This document shows, one piece after another, positions 1,963-28,933 of a stretch of DNA of 64,000 nucleotides. Below the pieces are notes generated by a model. That model worked only from the letters and a program-made list of their open reading frames with translations. It did not search any database and was not told the DNA's origin. The stretch is from contig NZ_AUID01000002.1 of the NCBI RefSeq assembly GCF_000423525.1, positions 62,001 to 126,000 on the forward strand, given 5' to 3'. Position 1 is the first letter of the stretch. Each line of letters opens with the position of its first letter. The DNA comes from Proteocatella sphenisci DSM 23131 (GTDB lineage: Bacteria > Bacillota > Clostridia > Peptostreptococcales > Filifactoraceae). The position numbers and the translations under genes are program-made.

Positions 1963-2655
1963 ATGGATTATCTGATTTTATTTTTGGAGGGAATAATTAC
2001 TTTTGTATCTCCATGCATCTTGCCCATGATTCCCATATATATAACCTATTTCATGGGAGAGGACACCACCGCAAAAGATACAGATTCTATATTCTCATTT
2101 AAAAATCCAGCACTCAAGAATTCCATTGGCTTTGTACTTGGATTTACAATCATTTTTGTACTCCTGGGTGCTGCAGCCGGCAGCATAGGCAAATTCGTTT
2201 TTACTCATGTTCGCATGTTTAATATAATTACTGGAGCCGTAATGATATTATTTGGTCTCAATTATATAGATGTCATCAATATAAAATTTCTTAAAAGCAC
2301 CCATAAGATAGACTACAGAGTCACAGATTTTAAATTCAGTAAATCAGTCTTGTTTGGCATAGTATTTTCAATTGGATGGTCTCCATGTGTAGGGGCATTT
2401 CTTGGTTCAGCCCTAATGATAGCTGCAAACAGCCAGACTATGGTCAAGGGTTCCCTTATGTTACTGGTATACAGTTTAGGACTTGGAGTTCCTTTTATCT
2501 TGTCTTCTCTCCTTATTAACAGTCTTAAATCAACTTTTGATTTGATAAAAAAGAACTACAAAATAATCAATAACATTTCTGGGGTATTCCTTATAATAGC
2601 TGGAATTTTAATGGTTACAGGCTTGTTTTCAAAACTGCTTGTATTCTTTTCCTGA
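1963..2655 (+). CDS. ccdA: CcdA-type thiol-disulfide transmembrane electron carrier
   Basis: An integral membrane protein of the CcdA/DsbD beta-domain family, 230 residues with about six membrane segments. It passes reducing equivalents from cytoplasmic thioredoxin to an extracytoplasmic thioredoxin-like protein. The two conserved membrane cysteines are visible in FVSPCILPMIPIY (residues 15-27) and in GWSPCVGAFLGS (about 139-150). The adjacent downstream gene encodes a TlpA/ResA-type thioredoxin, its expected partner. The ribosome binding site is AAGAGGG. The usual roles in cytochrome c maturation or spore envelope redox chemistry cannot be separated here; no cytochrome biogenesis genes are in view. 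Confidence 0.93.
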   Translation: MDYLILFLEGIITFVSPCILPMIPIYITYFMGEDTTAKDTDSIFSFKNPALKNSIGFVLGFTIIFVLLGAAAGSIGKFVFTHVRMFNIITGAVMILFGLNYIDVINIKFLKSTHKIDYRVTDFKFSKSVLFGIVFSIGWSPCVGAFLGSALMIAANSQTMVKGSLMLLVYSLGLGVPFILSSLLINSLKSTFDLIKKNYKIINNISGVFLIIAGILMVTGLFSKLLVFFS

Positions 2656-2703
2656 TTTGTAATCATAAATTTTTCTACGTTTTATAATAGAAAGGCGAAA
2701 TAT

Positions 2704-3285
2704 ATGAAAAATACTAAATTACCCATAATAATAGTTGTGATTTTAGTTTTGTTCGGTGGAGCATTTTATGCATACAATTCACTAAGCAGCAAAGAACTCC
2801 CGGTTTCAGAATCAGAAAACACTTTGCCTCCTGATCAGGTTGAAGAAACCAAGGTAAAGGCTCCCGATTTTAAGGTATATGATAAAGATAATAACGAAGT
2901 ATTCCTGAGTGATTTTGCCGGGCAGCCCATGGTAATAAACTTCTGGGCGAGCTGGTGCCCTCCTTGCCGCGCAGAAATGGATTATTTTCAAAAAGCATCT
3001 GACACTTACTCTGAAAAAGGTGTCAAGTTCTTTATGATAAATTCTACAGATGGCGACAGAGAAACAGTAGAAACTGCAAGTCAGTATTTTGAAGAAAATT
3101 CATATGATATGGACATGTATTTTGACCTTGATTTTGATGCATCTTACAAATACAGTGCCCGCAGTCTCCCTACTACTTTTTTTATAGATTCAGAAGGTAA
3201 TATTGTGAGCTACCAAGCTGGCAGCATGTCAGAAGACAACCTTATCAGCTCAATAGATTCCATAATGGAACCCAATGCCGAATAA
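2704..3285 (+). CDS. Membrane-anchored TlpA/ResA-type thiol-disulfide reductase
   Basis: A 193-residue exported thioredoxin-fold protein. The N-terminus has one hydrophobic anchor (about residues 5-25), then an acidic linker and an AhpC/TSA-Redoxin-like domain beginning KAPDFKVYDKD. The active site is WASWCPPCRAEM, with the CPPC motif typical of TlpA/ResA and a downstream cis-proline loop SLPTTFFID. It probably acts on the outer face of the membrane and is re-reduced by the CcdA encoded just upstream (48 bases between). Targets are unknown. Its loop residues after the active site fit TlpA better than DsbE, but this is not decisive. Confidence 0.92.
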   Translation: MKNTKLPIIIVVILVLFGGAFYAYNSLSSKELPVSESENTLPPDQVEETKVKAPDFKVYDKDNNEVFLSDFAGQPMVINFWASWCPPCRAEMDYFQKASDTYSEKGVKFFMINSTDGDRETVETASQYFEENSYDMDMYFDLDFDASYKYSARSLPTTFFIDSEGNIVSYQAGSMSEDNLISSIDSIMEPNAE

Positions 3286-3303
3286 TTTATTGGAGATAAT
3301 AAT

Positions 3304-4968
3304 ATGATAGAATTGTTAAGGAGTCTTTCAAACAACCTTGGTTATATACTGCTAATAGCTTTTTTAGTATCCAATATAAATGTGTTCAAAACCCTTATTC
3401 AAAAGGATGAACTAAGAAAGAAGAATCTAATTCTTCTTTCTCTTATATTTGGGGCTTTTGGAATACTTGGTACCTATACCGGAACAGAGATTAACGGAGC
3501 AATTGCAAACACCCGTATTATAGGCATAATGTCTGGTGGAATCCTCTGTGGCCCATTTGTCGGAATAACATCTGGCCTTATTGCAGGTATCCACCGTTTT
3601 CTTTTAGACCCCCATGGAATTACGACAATACCATGCAGCATAACGACTATAATATCCGGCTTAGTCTCCGGATACATATATACAAAATCAGATAATTCCA
3701 ACAAGTGGGCCTGGGGATTTTTTACAGGTCTTGCAATTCAGTCATTTGAAATGATCCTTATAATGTTTATGGTTCCTGACTTTAACACAGCCCTTAACAT
3801 CGTCAGGAGTATTTATTTCCCTATGAGCTTTGCAAACGCCATTGGAATAGCAATACTTATCCTTATAATACAGAGGATTTTTAAAGAAAAAGATGAAATA
3901 TCTGCTGAACAGGCTCAAATTGCTCTTGAGATAGCAAACAAAACCCTTCCTCACTTCAGAGAAATGGACGAAAATTCCCTTGAAAACATATGCAGCATAA
4001 TAAAGGATGCTGTTTGTGCCGATGCCGTTGCCATAACAGACAGGACTTGTATTTTAGCTCATGTAGGAATTGGTTCAGACCACCATATAAAGGGAAATAA
4101 GATCGAAACCCAGGCTACAAAAAAGGTCATAATAGATGGTCAACTCATTACTTTATCGGGTAAAGATAATATATGTTGTAACAACCCAAATTGCCAGTTA
4201 AAATCTGCATTAATATCCCCTCTTAAGGAGGATGCTACTGTTTCGGGAACCCTTAAAATATACTACTGCAAAGAAAACGCTATATCCTACAGGAACGTTA
4301 AACTTGCCGCGGGGCTTTCTCAGCTCATTTCTACCCAACTGGAAATAAGTAAACTTGGCGAACTCAAAAACATGGCAAACAAAGCTGAAATAAAGGCACT
4401 CCAGGCACAGATAAATCCACATTTTTTATTTAATGCACTGAACACGATTGTTTCTTTTATACGGATAAATCCTGATGAGGCAAGAAAACTCATAATAAAT
4501 CTGTCCACTTATTTGCGTCATAATATTGAGTCTGGCGAAAATTTTGTTGATATCAACAAGGAAATTGAGCAAGTCAAAGCTTACGTTGAAATAGAAAAAG
4601 CAAGATTTGGCGATAAACTTAATGTTATTTATGATATAGAAGAAAACCTTGATATAAAAATTCCCAGCCTTATAATCCAGCCTCTAGTTGAAAATTCTAT
4701 AAAACATGGGATCCTTGAGGGAAGTGGCAGCGGCAGTGTAAGTATAAAGATTAGAAAAATTAAAGATGATTCCATACAAGTATGCATCGAAGACGATGGG
4801 TGCGGGATTTCCAAAGAGATAATTAAGGGTATCTATAATGATGATATAGATAATACAAAAATAGGACTCTTGAATGTCCACAAGCGACTAAAGTGCATCT
4901 ATGGACAGGGGCTTTTCATTGATGAACTCGATTACGGGAGTCGAATAGTTTTCACGCTCAAACAATAA
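3304..4968 (+). CDS. LytS-like sensor histidine kinase (5TM-5TMR_LYT)
   Basis: A 554-residue membrane sensor kinase. Residues about 1-190 form the multi-helix 5TM-5TMR_LYT sensor, followed by a GAF-like domain (about 210-355) carrying a Cys cluster (ICCNNPNCQ). The His_kinase domain has the phospho-acceptor motif INPHFLFNALNT (His near 373), and the C-terminal HATPase has IIQPLVENSIKHG and DDGCGI. It phosphorylates the LytTR-type regulator encoded 12 bases downstream. Kinases of this class include LytS and the pyruvate sensors BtsS and YpdA. The CstA gene immediately after the regulator favours a pyruvate- or nutrient-sensing role over autolysis control; this is inference from context. Confidence 0.93.
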   Translation: MIELLRSLSNNLGYILLIAFLVSNINVFKTLIQKDELRKKNLILLSLIFGAFGILGTYTGTEINGAIANTRIIGIMSGGILCGPFVGITSGLIAGIHRFLLDPHGITTIPCSITTIISGLVSGYIYTKSDNSNKWAWGFFTGLAIQSFEMILIMFMVPDFNTALNIVRSIYFPMSFANAIGIAILILIIQRIFKEKDEISAEQAQIALEIANKTLPHFREMDENSLENICSIIKDAVCADAVAITDRTCILAHVGIGSDHHIKGNKIETQATKKVIIDGQLITLSGKDNICCNNPNCQLKSALISPLKEDATVSGTLKIYYCKENAISYRNVKLAAGLSQLISTQLEISKLGELKNMANKAEIKALQAQINPHFLFNALNTIVSFIRINPDEARKLIINLSTYLRHNIESGENFVDINKEIEQVKAYVEIEKARFGDKLNVIYDIEENLDIKIPSLIIQPLVENSIKHGILEGSGSGSVSIKIRKIKDDSIQVCIEDDGCGISKEIIKGIYNDDIDNTKIGLLNVHKRLKCIYGQGLFIDELDYGSRIVFTLKQ

Positions 4969-21916: not shown

Positions 21917-22261
21917 CTATATTCTCTTCACAAATTCAGATTTTAGTTTCATAGCTCCAAAACCATCTATTTTGCAATCTATATCATGGTCACCATCATA
22001 CATAAGACGAATATTTTTGACTTTTGTACCTATTTTTAAAACTGAAGAACTACCTTTAACCTTGAGGTCTTTTATTACAGTGACACTGTCTCCATCACTT
22101 AATACGTTACCATTTGAATCTTTTATAACTTTTTCATCTGAATTTGATGCATTTTCAGTACTCTGAGACCACTCATGTGCGCATTCCGGACATACAAACA
22201 TATTCCCATCTTCATAGGTATATTTAGATCCGCATTTTGAACACTCTGGCAAATTTGACAT
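21917..22261 (-). CDS. PhnA/YjdM-family zinc-ribbon protein
   Basis: A 114-residue protein with an N-terminal zinc ribbon (CSKCG and CPEC, residues 7-27), an acidic linker, and a C-terminal PhnA/YjdM domain with [23 protein letters not shown] and ending in [17 protein letters not shown]. The name comes from a gene near phosphonate genes in E. coli, but the family has no proven role in phosphonate use. The ATG at 22261 follows GGAGGA at good spacing. It is probably monocistronic and divergent from transketolase. Confidence 0.88.
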
Positions 22262-22367
22262 ATATTTAGTCCTCCATAATATCATTTTCTTAATTGTTAA
22301 TAGAACATAATATTATCATAAACATACTCCATTTACAAATATTTCTTGTGTTTTTTCAAAACACTTG

Positions 22368-22450: not shown

Positions 22451-24442
22451 ATGAATTATAAAAAAATCGACACGATTGCTATTAATACTATACGCTCACT
22501 TTCAGCAGATGCTGTTCAAAAAGCAAACTCTGGACATCCAGGACTTCCTCTTGGAGCAGCGCCAATGGCCTATGCTATATGGACTAAAATGAAACATAAT
22601 CCTAAAAATCCAAAGTGGAATGACAGAGACAGGTTTGTACTTTCTGCCGGTCATGGATCTATGCTTGTCTACTCCTTGCTCCATCTTTTTGGGTATGACA
22701 TGTCACTCGATGATATAAAGAATTTTCGTCAACTTGGAAGCTCTACTCCAGGACATCCCGAGTACGGTCACACAGAAGGCCTCGAAACAACTACTGGACC
22801 ACTTGGACAAGGACTAGCCAACGCTGTTGGAATGGCTATAGCAGAATCTCATATTTCAAAAAAATTCAATCGCCCGGAATTTGATATCGCGGACCATTTC
22901 ACATATGTTATAGCAGGAGATGGCTGTCTCATGGAAGGTATTTCTTCAGAAGCTTCTTCACTTGCAGGGACTCTTGAACTTGGAAAACTTATAATGCTTT
23001 ATGATTCCAACAGCATATCAATAGAAGGAAGTACAGATATTGCATTTACTGAAGATGTAGCAGGCAGATATCGCGCTTATGGATGGCAGGTAATTGAGGT
23101 TAAAGATGGAAATGATCTCGAGCTTATATCTTCTGCAATAGATGAAGCAAAGAGTAATAAAGATAAGCCCTCACTTATTATTGTTACTACCCAAATTGCA
23201 TACGGATGCCCTGCAAAACAAGGGAAGGCATCTGCTCATGGCGAGCCACTCGGAATAGAAAATGTAAGAGAATTAAAAACCACACTGGGACTAGACCCAG
23301 ATTTAGAATTTTATGTACCTGAAGAAGTTTATTCTCATATGGATAAATGGATACAAAGAGGAAATGAAGCTGAATCCAGCTGGTACAATCTCCTGGAATC
23401 TTACTCTAAAAAATATCCTGAGCTCTACAAAGAATATCTCAGATGGCACGAAATTGATTTTTCAAAGATCCTAAAAGATATAATAAATCTTGAAAACTAT
23501 AAAAAGGCTGTATCTACGCGTGAGGCATCAGGGAATCTCATAAACAGTATTTCTCATATAATGGAAAACTTTATAGGAGGCTCTGCAGATCTATCCCCTT
23601 CAAATAAAACTCATATGAAAGATCAGGGCGAGTATTCTGCTTCGTCAAGAGATGGCAGAAATCTCCATTTCGGGGTTAGAGAGCACGCTATGGCCGCAAT
23701 CACAAATGGAATTCGCCTTCATGGTGGCCTGGTACCTTACTGTGGCACTTTCCTCATATTTTCTGATTACATGAAAGCCGCTATGAGGCTTTCTGCTCTA
23801 ATGAATATCCCGGTTGTGTATGTGCTTACACACGACAGCATAGGAGTTGGTGAAGACGGTCCTACTCATCAGCCCGTTGAGCAGCTTTCATCACTTAGAA
23901 GTATCCCTAATATGACTGTATTCAGGCCAGCGGATGCAAAAGAAACTGCACTGGGCTGGTATCACGCCCTTACCAGTCATAATTCTCCTACTTCTTTGAT
24001 ACTTTCAAGACAAAACCTTCCTCTATATAAAGAGAGCAGCGAAAATGCCCTAAGAGGCGCTTATATACTCAAAGATTCTGAAAAGGAAATTCCTGATATA
24101 ATCCTCATGGCTTCTGGTTCAGAGGTTGAACTCATATACGACGCTCACGAAAGACTTAGGGCCCTTGGAATAGACTCAAGAGTATTAAGCATCCCATCTT
24201 TTGAAATATTTGAGAGACAAGAAGCAGAATATAAAGAAAAAGTAATGCCTTTGAATGTAAGAAAGAGAATAGCTGTCGAAGCATCAAATTCAGCGCAGTG
24301 GTACAGATATATCGGACTTGACGGAGAGCTTATTGGAATGAATAGCTTTGGGGCATCTGGAAAAGCATCAGACCTTTTTCCTCACTTTGGTTTCACTTCA
24401 GAAAACGTTGTTAAAGCCGCAGTTCAAATGATGAAAAAATAA
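22451..24442 (+). CDS. tkt: Transketolase
   Basis: A 663-residue thiamine-diphosphate enzyme moving two-carbon ketol units between sugar phosphates in the non-oxidative pentose phosphate pathway. The start [29 protein letters not shown]-type segment (residues 6-35), the TPP motif AGDGCLMEG (about 155-163) and the Pyr-domain segment [19 protein letters not shown] (about 468-486) are all present. It is full length and fused, not split as in some Clostridia. AAGGAG precedes the ATG. In anaerobes it supplies erythrose 4-phosphate to the aro operon, which is also in this window. Confidence 0.96.
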
Positions 24443-24451
24443 TTAATTTAT

Positions 24452-24491
24452 AACTCCCTGACTCAGAATAAGTAAACTGAATCAGGGAGTT
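24452..24491. terminator. Bidirectional terminator between tkt and the Crp-like gene
   Basis: Stem AACTCCCTGA/TCAGGGAGTT (24452-24461 and 24482-24491), extended inside by CTCAG/CTGA, lying between convergent genes. Confidence 0.85.
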
Positions 24492-24497
24492 TTGAAT

Positions 24498-25178
24498 TTA
24501 AAGATAAACCTCTGCAGACATTTTTCTAAGGCTTTCCTCATCTACAACTTCATAAGCCCCACCAACTTTCTTCAGATATCGGGCTTCACAGAAACTTTCG
24601 AGAGTTCTAAGAAGATGTCTGTAACTGGTGGAAAGAAGCTGAGCAGTTTCCGAAAGATTAACTTCAAAATACACTTTTTCTCTTTGTTCCGATGTTTTCA
24701 GGATATACCCTGCCAGGCGACTTTCAAGAGGATATAGCAAGTTTATAGAGCTGTTGTGAGAACTCCTGTGAAGTTTACCTCCAAGACTTTTGCAGATAAA
24801 CCTCAGAAATCTAGAATCATCCATAAGCCCAGGATTTACAACGTTCATAGGAATACCTATGCAATAGGTATCTTCAACCGCTTCTATACTCCCCGAAGTA
24901 AGCTCAGTTCCTAAAATTTCAATATCTCCCATAACTTCAAAATTTTCATAAAAACATATAAGGAGATTTTTTCCGTTTTGAAGAGATATATATGATTTCG
25001 CCCTTCCTTGTGTGAGAAAAAGCATATAATCAAGATTTTCTCCTTCTGTGCACAGCATTTCACCCTTTTTATAAAGAATAAGCTTCATCTCAGACCTTAT
25101 ATCCAAAGTGAAAATATCATCAATCTGATATTTTTTGATATGAGTGTCTTTCATAATATCATCATTTATTATTCTCAT
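24498..25178 (-). CDS. Crp/Fnr-family transcription regulator
   Basis: A 226-residue regulator with an N-terminal cyclic-nucleotide-binding-like beta barrel (about 20-130) and a C-terminal winged helix (about 150-215; LSETAQLLSTSYRHLLRTLESF is the recognition part). It resembles the YeiL/ArcR-like Crp branch; the residues binding cAMP and the N-terminal Fe-S cysteines of Fnr are not evident, so its signal is unknown. The start at 25178 follows AAGGAG. It is divergent from a pair of DMT transporter genes and a perfect 26-bp palindrome lies between them, very likely its own binding site. Confidence 0.9.
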   Translation of the reverse strand: MRIINDDIMKDTHIKKYQIDDIFTLDIRSEMKLILYKKGEMLCTEGENLDYMLFLTQGRAKSYISLQNGKNLLICFYENFEVMGDIEILGTELTSGSIEAVEDTYCIGIPMNVVNPGLMDDSRFLRFICKSLGGKLHRSSHNSSINLLYPLESRLAGYILKTSEQREKVYFEVNLSETAQLLSTSYRHLLRTLESFCEARYLKKVGGAYEVVDEESLRKMSAEVYL

Positions 25179-25214
25179 CGCACCGCTCCTTAGATTGTTA
25201 AAAAAATAAAGATA

Positions 25215-25240
25215 AGTGATATGACATATGTCATATCACT
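25215..25240. promoter_or_regulatory. 26-bp palindromic operator for the Crp-like regulator
   Basis: A perfect palindrome with half-site AGTGATATGACAT. Its centre (25227.5) is about 42 bases upstream of the start site implied by the -10 box TATAAT at 25258-25263, which is the class II position for activation by Crp-family proteins. It is also about 50 bases upstream of the divergent regulator gene, so it could mediate autoregulation. Confidence 0.75.
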
Positions 25241-25257
25241 GTATATATGTAACATGT

Positions 25258-25263
25258 TATAAT
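25258..25263 (+). promoter_or_regulatory. -10 box of the DMT pair promoter
   Basis: Perfect TATAAT. The -35 region falls inside the palindrome and matches poorly (TATCAC), as expected of an activator-dependent class II promoter. Confidence 0.6.
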
Positions 25264-25294
25264 AATAATTATTATAACAATAAAGGAGTAAAAT

Positions 25295-25717
25295 ATGAAC
25301 AATATAATATCGGCAGCTACCGGTGTGTTAATAGCGCTAATGCTGCTTTTCAATGGATATCTTGCAGGTTTTTTTGGTATATACACTTCAAGCGTCCTCA
25401 TTCACGCAGCTGGTCTTTTAGCAATTACTGTGATAATAATTGCGGGCAGGCATCGCTTTGGCAGATGCAAAGAAGCAAAGTGGTATCTTTACAGCGCAGG
25501 AGCAGTAGGTGTAATAACAGTTATATTTAATACCATTTCATTTTCAGGAATGGGAGTTTCACTTACGCTTGCAGTCAGCCTTCTTGGCCAGTCTCTCGCT
25601 GCCATAATAATTGATCATTATGGCCTTATGGGAATGAAAAAAGTAAAATTCGAAAGACAAAAAATCACCGGTCTTGTTCTTATACTAGCTGGAATTATTA
25701 TTATGTCAGTATTTTAG
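25295..25717 (+). CDS. DMT-superfamily half-size transporter (DUF606/YdcZ), first subunit
   Basis: A 140-residue membrane protein with about five hydrophobic segments, a half-length member of the drug/metabolite transporter superfamily (DUF606, YdcZ). Members are often encoded as adjacent pairs that must assemble together, in contrast to the 10-helix EamA proteins. It begins SAATGVLIALMLLFNGYLAG and ends with a short helix. AAAGGAG precedes the ATG. The second half-size gene follows 9 bases later. The substrate is unknown. Confidence 0.85.
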   Translation: MNNIISAATGVLIALMLLFNGYLAGFFGIYTSSVLIHAAGLLAITVIIIAGRHRFGRCKEAKWYLYSAGAVGVITVIFNTISFSGMGVSLTLAVSLLGQSLAAIIIDHYGLMGMKKVKFERQKITGLVLILAGIIIMSVF

Positions 25718-25726
25718 GAGGTCCAC

Positions 25727-26209
25727 ATGTTTTATATATTAGCAGCAATAATGGCTGGTGCTTCAGTACTCATAGCCAGAATAATAAACTCTATTCTTGC
25801 CGAAAAAATAGGCGTATTTCAGGGAACTTTTTTTAACAACCTTACCGGACTTATGGTATCTCTAATTCTTATGTTCATAAGTAAAGACACACTGATAACA
25901 GCGTCAACTATTTCTCAGACATCTGCATATATGTATCTTGGGGGTGTCCTTGGAGTAATAGTCGTTTCAGTCTCAAGTTTTATGACACCAAAAATGTCAG
26001 CTTTTTATTTTACATTATTTTCTTTTGTAGGTCAGCTTTTTGGAGCCATTCTTATAGACTATGCCACAACAAGAACTTTTTCAATCCCAAAAACTGTAGG
26101 CGGACTGCTTGTACTTGCGGGTCTTAGCTACAATCTCATGCTGGATTCAAAAAAATCCGTTGATTCTTCAAAAACAGAAAACATCTTATATGACCCAAAT
26201 GTTTATTAA
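25727..26209 (+). CDS. DMT-superfamily half-size transporter (DUF606/YdcZ), second subunit
   Basis: A 160-residue membrane protein paralogous to the one just upstream, with about five hydrophobic segments and a short polar C-terminal tail. The typical DUF606 features are N-terminal GASVLIARIINSILAEKIG and TFFNNLTGL. AGGAGG precedes the ATG. With the first subunit it probably forms a heteromeric efflux or uptake carrier under control of the divergent Crp-like regulator. I see no sequence clue to the substrate. Confidence 0.85.
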   Translation: MFYILAAIMAGASVLIARIINSILAEKIGVFQGTFFNNLTGLMVSLILMFISKDTLITASTISQTSAYMYLGGVLGVIVVSVSSFMTPKMSAFYFTLFSFVGQLFGAILIDYATTRTFSIPKTVGGLLVLAGLSYNLMLDSKKSVDSSKTENILYDPNVY

Positions 26210-26250
26210 TAGGGCCTTAATATGTGTATATAGCTTTGGATAAAGTGCAT

Positions 26251-26294
26251 AAAAAAGGCAGGTGAACTCTCTCAGTTGAGCCATCCCACCTGCC
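26251..26294 (-). terminator. Terminator of the ald-nhaC operon
   Basis: Stem GGCAGGTG/CACCTGCC (26294-26287 and 26264-26257 on the minus strand) followed by six T (26256-26251). Confidence 0.85.
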
Positions 26295-26317
26295 TGAAAA
26301 GTAAAATATATACAAGA

Positions 26318-27727
26318 TTAGATTCCCACGAACCCTAGTATTAGGTAACCTGCCAATGCAATTCCCGCACATATCAAAGAATATGGAAGCTGAGTCCTTA
26401 CATGGTCAATATGATCAGCTGCTGCACCGGTTGATGCTAATACCGTCGTATCCGAAAGCGGGGAACAATGGTCTCCAAATACACCCCCTCCAGCTACTGC
26501 TGCAAAAGCTGCCGCTACAAGAGTTGTTACCATCCCACCTGAAAAACTAAATGCAAGGGGAAGCGCTATAGGCATACATATTGCAAAAGTTCCCCATGAA
26601 GATCCTGTTGAAAATGCCATTACTGCAGATATAAGAAATATAACTGCCGGTAAAAGTTGTGGCGTAAGGAATCCTTTTGCTATATCTACTATATAATTTG
26701 CAGTCCCCATATCTTTGCTCAATTGGTTTACTGAATATGCAAGCGCAAGGAGCATTATAGCCGGTATTGCTCCTTTGACTCCATCTGTTGCTGTGTTCAT
26801 TACCTCCTTGAAAGGAATCCCCTGAAAAACCATGCTTATTGACATGAATATTATTACAAAAAGGAATGCTTCCATTGTTTTTGCTGATTTAAGTGTAAAA
26901 AATGTTGCAAGTGCTATTACTATTATCATTATTACTGGAAGAATAAAATTGAGAAATATCCTCTGCTTAAGCCCTGGGTATGCTTCCATATCAGTAAGCT
27001 CTTTTCCTATAAGTGGAACTGCTCCATCTCTAAGAACCTTACCTTCGTTCATAGCCCTATCTTCAGCTTTTTTCATTGGTCCAAAGTCTTTAATAATCCC
27101 TGACCCTATAAGCCCTACGAATATTATAGATATAATTGGGTAAAAGTTCATCGGTATCGCTTTTATAAAAAGTGACATCGCATCTTCTTGAGTAACTATA
27201 CTACCTACTCCAATAGCCAGCCCACTCAGGAAAGCCGCCCATCCAGTGATTGGCATAAGTACGCTTACTGGAGCAGATGTTGAGTCAGCTATGTACGAAA
27301 GCTTTTCTCTTGAAACTTTGGCTTCGTCAGAAACGCTTCTCATCGTTGCCCCTACAAACAACGGGCTGAAAGAATCACTAAAGTAAACGAACATTCCCAT
27401 TACCCATGATGCCAGTTGCACTCTTGCCCTGCTTAGTTTCTTATTTTTCATATACTTAGTAAATCCTTGTATGGCTCCAGTTTTTTGGAAGTAAGCAACA
27501 AGGATACCTATGAATGTATTCAGAAGCATTATCCATGCAAAACTCGTTGTTCCCAGACTTGTTTTTAAGAGTGTTGGAAACCCCATTATTCCTTGACCCG
27601 CAAGCAGTGTCCCTACTATGCAGGCACTCATAAGTGACACAATAGTGTTTCTCGTGACAAATGATAAAACGATGGCTATAATCGCTGGTATTATAGAAAT
27701 AAATCCCATATTAACTATTTCTTGCAT
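26318..27727 (-). CDS. nhaC: NhaC-family Na+/H+ (or metabolite) antiporter
   Basis: A 469-residue membrane antiporter with about eleven segments. Family features include SFAWIMLLNTFIGILVAYFQKTGA, FSDSFSPLFVGATMRSVSDEAKVSREKLSYI (across residues 115-148) and GGGVFGDHCSPLSDTTVLAS near the C-terminus. NhaC proteins exchange Na+ for protons, but relatives such as MleN swap organic acids, and nhaC genes recur in amino acid fermentation clusters. Here it is cotranscribed behind an alanine-dehydrogenase-like gene from a sigma-54 promoter, so it may exchange an amino acid or its product. AGGAGG precedes the ATG. Confidence 0.9.
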   Translation of the reverse strand: MQEIVNMGFISIIPAIIAIVLSFVTRNTIVSLMSACIVGTLLAGQGIMGFPTLLKTSLGTTSFAWIMLLNTFIGILVAYFQKTGAIQGFTKYMKNKKLSRARVQLASWVMGMFVYFSDSFSPLFVGATMRSVSDEAKVSREKLSYIADSTSAPVSVLMPITGWAAFLSGLAIGVGSIVTQEDAMSLFIKAIPMNFYPIISIIFVGLIGSGIIKDFGPMKKAEDRAMNEGKVLRDGAVPLIGKELTDMEAYPGLKQRIFLNFILPVIMIIVIALATFFTLKSAKTMEAFLFVIIFMSISMVFQGIPFKEVMNTATDGVKGAIPAIMLLALAYSVNQLSKDMGTANYIVDIAKGFLTPQLLPAVIFLISAVMAFSTGSSWGTFAICMPIALPLAFSFSGGMVTTLVAAAFAAVAGGGVFGDHCSPLSDTTVLASTGAAADHIDHVRTQLPYSLICAGIALAGYLILGFVGI

Positions 27728-27763: not shown

Positions 27764-28933
27764 CTAAACTCTTTCATAATAGTTTTCTGATTTGCTCACG
27801 GTTGCCGGAGGAGCCATATCCAGTTTGTTTTTTGAAATTTTAAGAATGTCTTCTGGCCTTATCCATGGTCTTTCTTGTATAGCGCTTGTTTCTTCATGTG
27901 TAAGATAGCCTCTGTAAGCGGTAAGACTTCTTCTAAGAAATCCATCTTTTTCGCATGCTTTTTCGATACCATTATTCATTATGGACCTGAAGTGAGGAAG
28001 TACTGAAGCCGCATATGCTATTGATGTCGAATGAGAAATAAGACTCGGAATATTGCTCACACAATAATGAACTACTCCATTTTCAATATATCTCGGATTT
28101 TCATGAGTTGTCTCTTTAAAAGACTCTATTGCGCCTTGTTCATCATTGCTTATGTCCACGATAACTGATCCCTTTTTCATTAAATTTAGCATTTCCCTGT
28201 CTATAAGGTACTCCTTGCAACCTTTTGGCCATTTTACACAGTTAAGTACTATATCTATTTCAGGGAGCAGCTTTGTAATATTATATTTTGTTGAAAGGAC
28301 TGTGTTTACCCTCTCATCATACTTTCTGCCAATTTCTCTCATAGTACCTATGTTTATGTCAGCAACCGTACACCAGGCTCCCAAAGAATGCAGTACTTGA
28401 AGTGCAGATTTACCTACTATTCCCCCTCCTAGCACAAGTACTTTTATTCCTGGGGCTCCGGCCAATCCGGAAACAAATTTACCTTTTCCTCCGTTTATTG
28501 ACTGCATTGACTCAAGACCCATAAGTGCTCCTTGTTTTCCTGCAGCCTCACAGTTAGGAGAACCGTATCTGTGTGAATCTTCTGCCGTAAAAGCAATTAC
28601 CTTTTTTTTAATCATTGCATCAACTTCCTCTGGATGGGATGCGGGGTGTATGCAAGTAAAGATAATTTGCCCTTCCCTGAGAAGATCATATTCAGGTTCT
28701 TCTATTTCTTTTACCTTTGCTATAAATTCACATGTGTCATAAATTTCCTTGGCAGAGTTAAGTATGGTTGCTCCTGCTTCTTGATATTCCAAGTCTTCAA
28801 AACCTGCTTTTTCACCTGCTTCAGCTTGTACATATACTGCATGTCCATCCGAACATATTGTTGCTACTTCTGCAGGAGTCGCAATAACCCTGTTTTCTCC
28901 AATTTTAATGTCTTTAAGTACTCCAAATTTCAT
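27764..28933 (-). CDS. ald: Alanine dehydrogenase/PNT-family NAD-dependent dehydrogenase
   Basis: A 389-residue member of the alanine dehydrogenase/transhydrogenase alpha family, which interconverts an amino acid and its 2-oxo acid with NAD(H). Arg15, Lys75 and His96 occupy the positions of the pyruvate-binding and catalytic residues of alanine dehydrogenases, and the Rossmann motif is LGGGIVGKSA (about residues 168-177). The segment after His96 (PASHPEEVDAM) and residues 110-150 differ from typical Ald, and the protein is slightly longer, so another amino acid is possible. Transcription starts at a sigma-54 promoter 40 bases upstream; GGAAGGAG precedes the ATG. nhaC follows 36 bases downstream. 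Confidence 0.8.
   Translation of the reverse strand: MKFGVLKDIKIGENRVIATPAEVATICSDGHAVYVQAEAGEKAGFEDLEYQEAGATILNSAKEIYDTCEFIAKVKEIEEPEYDLLREGQIIFTCIHPASHPEEVDAMIKKKVIAFTAEDSHRYGSPNCEAAGKQGALMGLESMQSINGGKGKFVSGLAGAPGIKVLVLGGGIVGKSALQVLHSLGAWCTVADINIGTMREIGRKYDERVNTVLSTKYNITKLLPEIDIVLNCVKWPKGCKEYLIDREMLNLMKKGSVIVDISNDEQGAIESFKETTHENPRYIENGVVHYCVSNIPSLISHSTSIAYAASVLPHFRSIMNNGIEKACEKDGFLRRSLTAYRGYLTHEETSAIQERPWIRPEDILKISKNKLDMAPPATVSKSENYYERV

Follow-up and report, generated by a model that had tools for sequence, protein, structure and literature searches.

A divergent regulator–transporter locus and its predicted promoter

Within the window, the 64-kb stretch of DNA analysed here, we found a regulator gene on the (−) strand lying back to back with two transporter genes on the (+) strand, the divergent genes being 116 bp apart. 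The regulator (24498–25178, 226 aa) is a YeiL-like protein of the CRP/FNR superfamily, and the two half-size transporter genes (25295–25717, 140 aa, and 25727–26209, 160 aa) both encode YdcZ/DUF606 proteins (PF04657 DMT_YdcZ, 1.7e-24 and 2.5e-24), which makes them a DUF606/YdcZ pair. Shine-Dalgarno sequences could be read for both transporter genes on the (+) strand, AAAGGAG at 25282–25288 for the first and AGGAGG at 25716–25721, overlapping the stop codon of the first gene, for the second. Convergent with the pair is a gene for an NhaC-type antiporter family protein (PF03553, 26318–27727), upstream of which (27764–28933) is a gene for an alanine-dehydrogenase-type enzyme, so named by eye. A PhnA/YjdM-like zinc-ribbon protein, also named by eye, is encoded at 21917–22285, and gene cluster comparison placed relatives of it near the regulator in the congeneric locus L002 and in L089, L091 and L098.

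The intergenic region contains a perfect 26-bp palindrome, AGTGATATGACATATGTCATATCACT, at 25215–25240. With exactly matching 13-bp arms, it is the longest gapless palindrome of the window, where the runner-up has arms of 10 bp and base composition predicts 0.002 palindromes with arms of at least 13 bp. Its inner 24 bp occur once in the 2.41-Mb genome, even when up to three mismatches are allowed. The first-pass annotation had taken all 26 bp as a perfect operator; the palindrome is indeed exact, but only its 16-bp core, TATGACATATGTCATA (25220–25235, centre 25227.5), is conserved in comparisons, and the five outermost bases of either arm (AGTGA/TCACT) vary among relatives. The congeneric copy L002, whose regulator is 78% identical, has TGTGACATATGTCATA inside a longer, imperfect repeat with different outer arms. 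The putative operator is thus the 16-bp core rather than the 26 bp, and, like the palindrome, it has no strand. It lies approximately 50 bp upstream of the start codon of the regulator gene, and autoregulation through the same putative operator is likely. Across the genome we found one exact core site and five sites with two mismatches; a reversed control pattern gave four sites per strand, so the five are at chance level. A search of the same genome for a wider regulon (core, up to two mismatches) returned extra sites only at chance level.

Downstream of the core on the (+) strand is an extended −10 element, TGTTATAAT (TG-T-TATAAT, 25255–25263), comprising a perfect TATAAT at 25258–25263 and a TG at 25255–25256 that the first-pass annotation did not mention. 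The −10 hexamer begins 31 bp past the operator centre. From this −10 the transcription start is predicted at 25270 (+), and with +1 set there the operator centre falls at −42.5, matching the distance of about 42 bases given earlier. The best −35 match in the window has three of six bases at a spacer of 17 (one of six at spacers 16 and 18), so the earlier description of a perfect −10 and a poor −35 holds as well. At class II CRP-type promoters and at PrfA boxes, a two-fold site lies approximately 41.5 bp upstream of the start and the −35 is weak or absent. The arrangement in the window follows this class II activator layout, with a predicted centre at −42.5 (near −41.5), a −10 and a weak −35. 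A second perfect inverted repeat, TGTTATAATAATAATTATTATAACA (25255–25279), spans the −10 and the predicted start, and is absent as such in the congeneric L002.

Conservation of the operator and its spacing

Operator conservation in related genomes had been set beforehand as a test of the proposal, and the refuting outcome, a lack of such conservation, was not seen. Starting from the regulator, we gathered 113 loci out of overlapping genome sets (11 from the family, 398 from the phylum and 393 from the order), leaving out the 18 weakest rows of a regulator search and, before counts were made, L003 (27% identity), L004 (the same as L002) and L006–L008 (the same as L001). Divergent YdcZ genes were present at 61 of these loci, YdcZ genes were arranged in other ways on the same strand at 20, and 32 had no YdcZ within reach. 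We found the core with at most four mismatches upstream of the regulator at 60 of the 61 divergent loci (0, 1, 2, 3 and 4 mismatches in 20, 10, 21, 7 and 2 loci, respectively, and six in one), 20 of them exact. The single miss, L054, nonetheless contains one TGACATATGTCA in its DNA, and probably reflects a regulator start misplaced by the choice of the longest ORF.

A column profile of the divergent loci showed two conserved blocks; one is the core, and the other, TGnTAnnnT, covers roughly +28 to +36. We removed rows more than 80% alike to obtain 47 non-redundant loci and scored them for an extended −10 (TGnTATAAT-like; threshold 5 of 6.5), with 300 dinucleotide shuffles as the control. An extended −10 with its hexamer at +30/+31 from the operator centre was found at 40 of the 47 loci (shuffles: mean 1.5 loci, maximum 6). 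None of the 47 loci had a −35 box with at least five matches to TTGACA, and the best candidates had at most four of six, which is no improvement on the shuffles. This comparison shows the position of the putative operator, its spacing to the −10 and the missing −35 to be common properties of the predicted promoters, and kept spacing together with the lack of a −35 amounts to class II activator geometry. As a predicted mechanism, direct activation by the divergent regulator, as proposed at first, is well supported by such a geometry and by the spacing kept at 40 of 47 loci.

From 291 class genomes drawn independently we obtained 11 new loci, none of which had been used for deriving the motif. 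Five of these belong to other genera within the class and combine a divergent YdcZ pair with the operator, with mismatches of 0 (L167), 1 (L169), 3 (L171), 1 (L172) and 0 (L173); their extended −10 scores at +30/+31 are 5.5, 5, 5, 3.5 and 5.5 in the same order. At L174 and L175 the YdcZ pair was absent and no nucleoside gene passed its cut-off, and at L177 the contig ends. Other arrangements were also seen. In some further genomes of the phylum (L015, L016 and L026–L029) and on a Paenibacillus plasmid (L182), the two YdcZ halves flank the regulator gene on a single strand; in L182 a NUDIX gene follows. Paraclostridium bifermentans has the module on a plasmid. The second YdcZ gene is split in L036, and the regulator of L067 (G645:C55) has an in-frame TAA.

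The regulator, its possible effector and its gene company

The regulator matches PF00027 (8.9e-13) and PF13545 (2.1e-6) over their curated cut-offs, which places it in the CRP/FNR superfamily, and its profile matches to CRP reach E of about 1e-17. Together with PF04657 in both transporter genes, these matches bear out the early description of a Crp-like regulator divergent from paired half-size DMT genes. The regulator shares 30% identity with E. coli YeiL (E 1e-34), and it scores 178.6 bits against the NCBIfam YeiL model NF007707, under the cut-off of 180; we therefore call it YeiL-like only. Its recognition helix reads STSYRHLLRT. Among the related loci, the residue after YRHL is Leu in none of the 17 regulators with GGAC half-sites and in 42 of the 61 with TGAC half-sites, and Y or F replaces R191 in all five with TGAG half-sites (Arg in 89 of 89 other rows; L067, which lacks an aligned helix, is omitted from the table). 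Two more TGAG-type cases from the out-of-sample loci, L177 and L178, have Tyr at the same helix position. On the tree these changes amount to only two to four independent switches, and helix–operator covariation did not reach significance. The joint change of half-site letters and helix is suggestive of recognition of the core by the regulator.

In CRP, Arg82 contacts the cAMP phosphate, and the cAMP-CRP site is TGTGA-N6-TCACA. Residue 94, which aligns to Arg82, is Thr in the window regulator, and the majority of 114 rows have A, T, I or V there, Arg being outside the commonest letters. The regulator thus has neither an Arg82 equivalent nor a TGTGA-N6-TCACA site, and since the Arg82 position holds A, T, I or V, the residue pattern makes the canonical cAMP mode unlikely and suggests some other effector. 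FNR senses through a 4Fe-4S cluster held by N-terminal cysteines; the window regulator has no such N-terminal cysteine cluster, its first Cys being residue 43. Conserved regulator residues include G84-D85-x-E87, K135, N146 and Y149-P150. An AlphaFold regulator model from two sequences had a mean pLDDT of 51.7 and was set aside.

We next compared the locus with that of E. coli YeiL (b2163), a CRP/FNR-type member of the same family that likewise has divergent neighbour genes, rihB-nupX. A TATGAGANNTCTCATA site lies between yeiL and rihB (full site TATGAGAAATCTCATA), with an extended −10, TGTTAAGAT, at +31 of the site centre towards rihB. However, the E. coli protein has Y for R in the recognition helix, its half-sites are TGAG rather than TGAC, and its neighbours encode a nucleoside hydrolase and a carrier, with no YdcZ among them. 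The yeiL gene also adjoins psuT-psuG-psuK. YeiL is still counted with the E. coli transcription factors whose function is unknown, and a single regulated gene is on record for it (PMC9308461).

Nucleoside genes also recur beside related regulators. At 12 of the 32 loci without YdcZ, the first divergent gene behind the operator is a nucleoside or nucleotide gene, a category defined once the neighbours had been seen. These first genes encode a Bmp/PnrA-like lipoprotein (L061, L065, L067 and L112), NupC (L069), YjjG (L080, L087, L088, L089, L093 and L095) or, at L083, a pseudouridine-kinase-like protein that falls under the pseudouridine-kinase cut-off and is followed by a psuG-family gene. NCBIfam names the YjjG of L080 and L089; except for those of L105, L176 and L178, the remaining YjjG calls rest on a profile built in this analysis. 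A −10 candidate scoring at least 4.5 of 6.5 is present at +30/+31 in 13 of 13 cases (the 12 loci and E. coli rihB). Seven of the 13 score 6, or 5.5 for E. coli, and −10 scores are lower at the YjjG loci (4.5–5). At the other 20 of the 32 loci we saw no gene of this category in first place; examples of what is there are an MFS carrier near a pfkB kinase, a sugar/rhizopine-type binding protein, an AdoHcyase-like protein and a methyltransferase, and several phylum-level loci showed nothing clear.

Among the out-of-sample loci, YjjG lies behind the operator at L176. At L178 (2124–3498), a gene for a DUF6198 membrane protein and then YjjG stand behind a TGAG-type operator, and the DUF6198 protein is perhaps a second carrier type in the place of YdcZ. 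A Bmp gene is co-directional with the regulator at L179, and another adjoins the regulator on the same strand on the Enterococcus faecium plasmid L181, in which we found no good operator. In L174, Rid-family and isochorismatase-family genes (2375–3324) sit immediately upstream of the YeiL-like regulator, a combination reminiscent of RutC/RutB in pyrimidine degradation; the RutC match, at 55 bits, is below the cut-off of 169. From the target genes we infer that the effector may be a nucleoside, nucleotide or close derivative, most likely a pyrimidine.

The transporter pair and the proposed switch

The first transporter half in the window has five predicted TM segments, with ten loop K+R on the N-terminal side and none on the other. 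A simple predictor found only four TM segments in the second half, the charge orientation of which is less clear. Across the family, 29 of 43 pairs are 5+5 TM by a simple hydropathy count, and in 28 of those the two halves differ in the sign of their K+R bias, so that comparison shows a charge bias of opposite sign in the predicted subunits. Two-gene antiparallel DUF606 pairs were reported by Lolkema et al. (2008), as described in PMC3962082. The window pair resembles them in being two adjacent half-size PF04657 genes from a family with opposite K+R bias; regulator, operator and cargo are not part of the description in the sections of that article consulted. Pfam names YdcZ as a putative exporter only.

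We then considered the cargo from gene company. Six loci (L090, L091, L098, L099, L105 and L107) have a YdcZ-YdcZ-YjjG operon, loci of closely related regulators have YjjG without YdcZ, and YdcZ and YjjG swap among near-identical regulators. YjjG is a house-cleaning pyrimidine nucleotidase that dephosphorylates dUMP, dTMP, UMP and non-canonical pyrimidine nucleotides (PMC8475336). In related genomes it thus shares an operon or an operator with the YdcZ pair, whereas it is not part of the window operon; on the window's own tree branch the YdcZ pair has its operon to itself, nucleoside genes being absent from it. Among 20 YdcZ loci without this regulator, three have pyr genes, one has a PucR-type regulator as neighbour and 16 have neither, meaning that no nucleotide gene was recognised, with L149, on a contig too short for neighbours, counted among the 16. 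The pyr cases come from one genus, where a fused YdcZ directly follows pyrE with pyrF upstream (L152 and L153) or lies beside pyrB and pyrE in a pyrimidine biosynthesis operon (L151). Pyr operons often include a uracil importer. Together, the YdcZ-YdcZ-YjjG operons and the fused YdcZ in pyr operons favour a pyrimidine nucleoside or base as the likely cargo of the YdcZ pair. Uptake would fit the company of NupC, Bmp and the pyr operon, and export would fit YjjG house-cleaning and the DMT superfamily. The signal and substrate, which the first-pass annotation had left unknown, can thus be narrowed to candidate pyrimidine nucleoside/nucleotide chemistry through the gene company of regulator and transporter.

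These observations led us to propose that a YeiL-like dimer would bind TATGACATATGTCATA, that the effector-bound dimer would contact RNA polymerase at a class II promoter with an extended −10 and no −35, and that this contact would switch on an antiparallel two-subunit YdcZ (DUF606) transporter. We infer binding and activation by the regulator from sequence, and direct activation is the best reading because the operator and its spacing to the extended −10 are conserved. The likeness to CRP and PrfA class II promoters lies in a two-fold site about 41.5 bp upstream of a start with a weak or absent −35; the difference is that TATGACATATGTCATA is neither TGTGA-N6-TCACA nor a PrfA box, and that the residue pattern speaks against cAMP as the effector. 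The explanation we favour as a whole, with moderate confidence, is a local, single-target class II switch with a (pyrimidine) nucleoside or nucleotide effector, its transporter carrying a pyrimidine nucleoside or base.

The same class II switch could instead serve a cargo and signal that are not nucleosides (e.g. a cationic metabolite, drug or amino acid), the nucleoside neighbours belonging to paralogues with other effectors. That the operator is followed by the YdcZ pair only in the case of the window's branch, that YdcZ and nucleoside labels cluster partly by clade and that many further neighbours lack a nucleotide function would all suit this reading. We consider it rather unlikely, as YdcZ and YjjG share one operon at six loci and interchange among near-identical regulators, and the pyrE–YdcZ link, though seen in one genus, is independent. 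Less probable again is that the regulator is a repressor which occupies the promoter until a signal releases it. The operator does cover the usual −35 place and also falls within the regulator's own upstream region, and a site at −42.5 could repress as well. However, with none of the 47 loci reaching five matches to TTGACA there is nothing to occlude, and the constant +30/+31 spacing to the extended −10 corresponds to the arrangement of class II activators familiar from CRP and PrfA. A terminator scan flagged the palindrome on the (−) strand, which would suit a terminator of transcription or some different RNA hairpin in place of an operator. We rejected this as highly improbable, since the palindrome is upstream of both divergent genes, its letters themselves, beyond their pairing, are conserved across genera, and Rfam gave no match in 24000–27000.

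Returning to the class II activator that we favour, the unit belongs to a common family of local CRP/FNR-type switches, and all its parts are of kinds already known. The novelty lies in the operator rule, which would tie it to YeiL of E. coli, and in the pyrimidine link. A broader reading, which we offer tentatively and as short of an even chance, is that YeiL-like regulators are widespread pyrimidine-nucleoside(-tide) class II activators that have one operator in common, TATGA[C/G]A-N2-T[G/C]TCATA, from Clostridia to E. coli, and that paired YdcZ/DUF606 proteins are the pyrimidine nucleoside or base carriers under them, whether for uptake or for exporting house-cleaning products. Literature in which subscription papers were mostly outside reach yielded no report of a YeiL operator or a YdcZ–nucleoside link, and one match to an operator string was a CRP consensus in a table. 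If true, the joint reading would assign functions to two orphan families together. Should the operator rule hold, YeiL would activate rihB-nupX in E. coli K-12 via 2255287–2255302 of NC_000913.3 (L119 7288–7303). If the nucleoside link is right, it would provide a predicted cargo for a transporter family that 178 of the order's 393 genomes encode.
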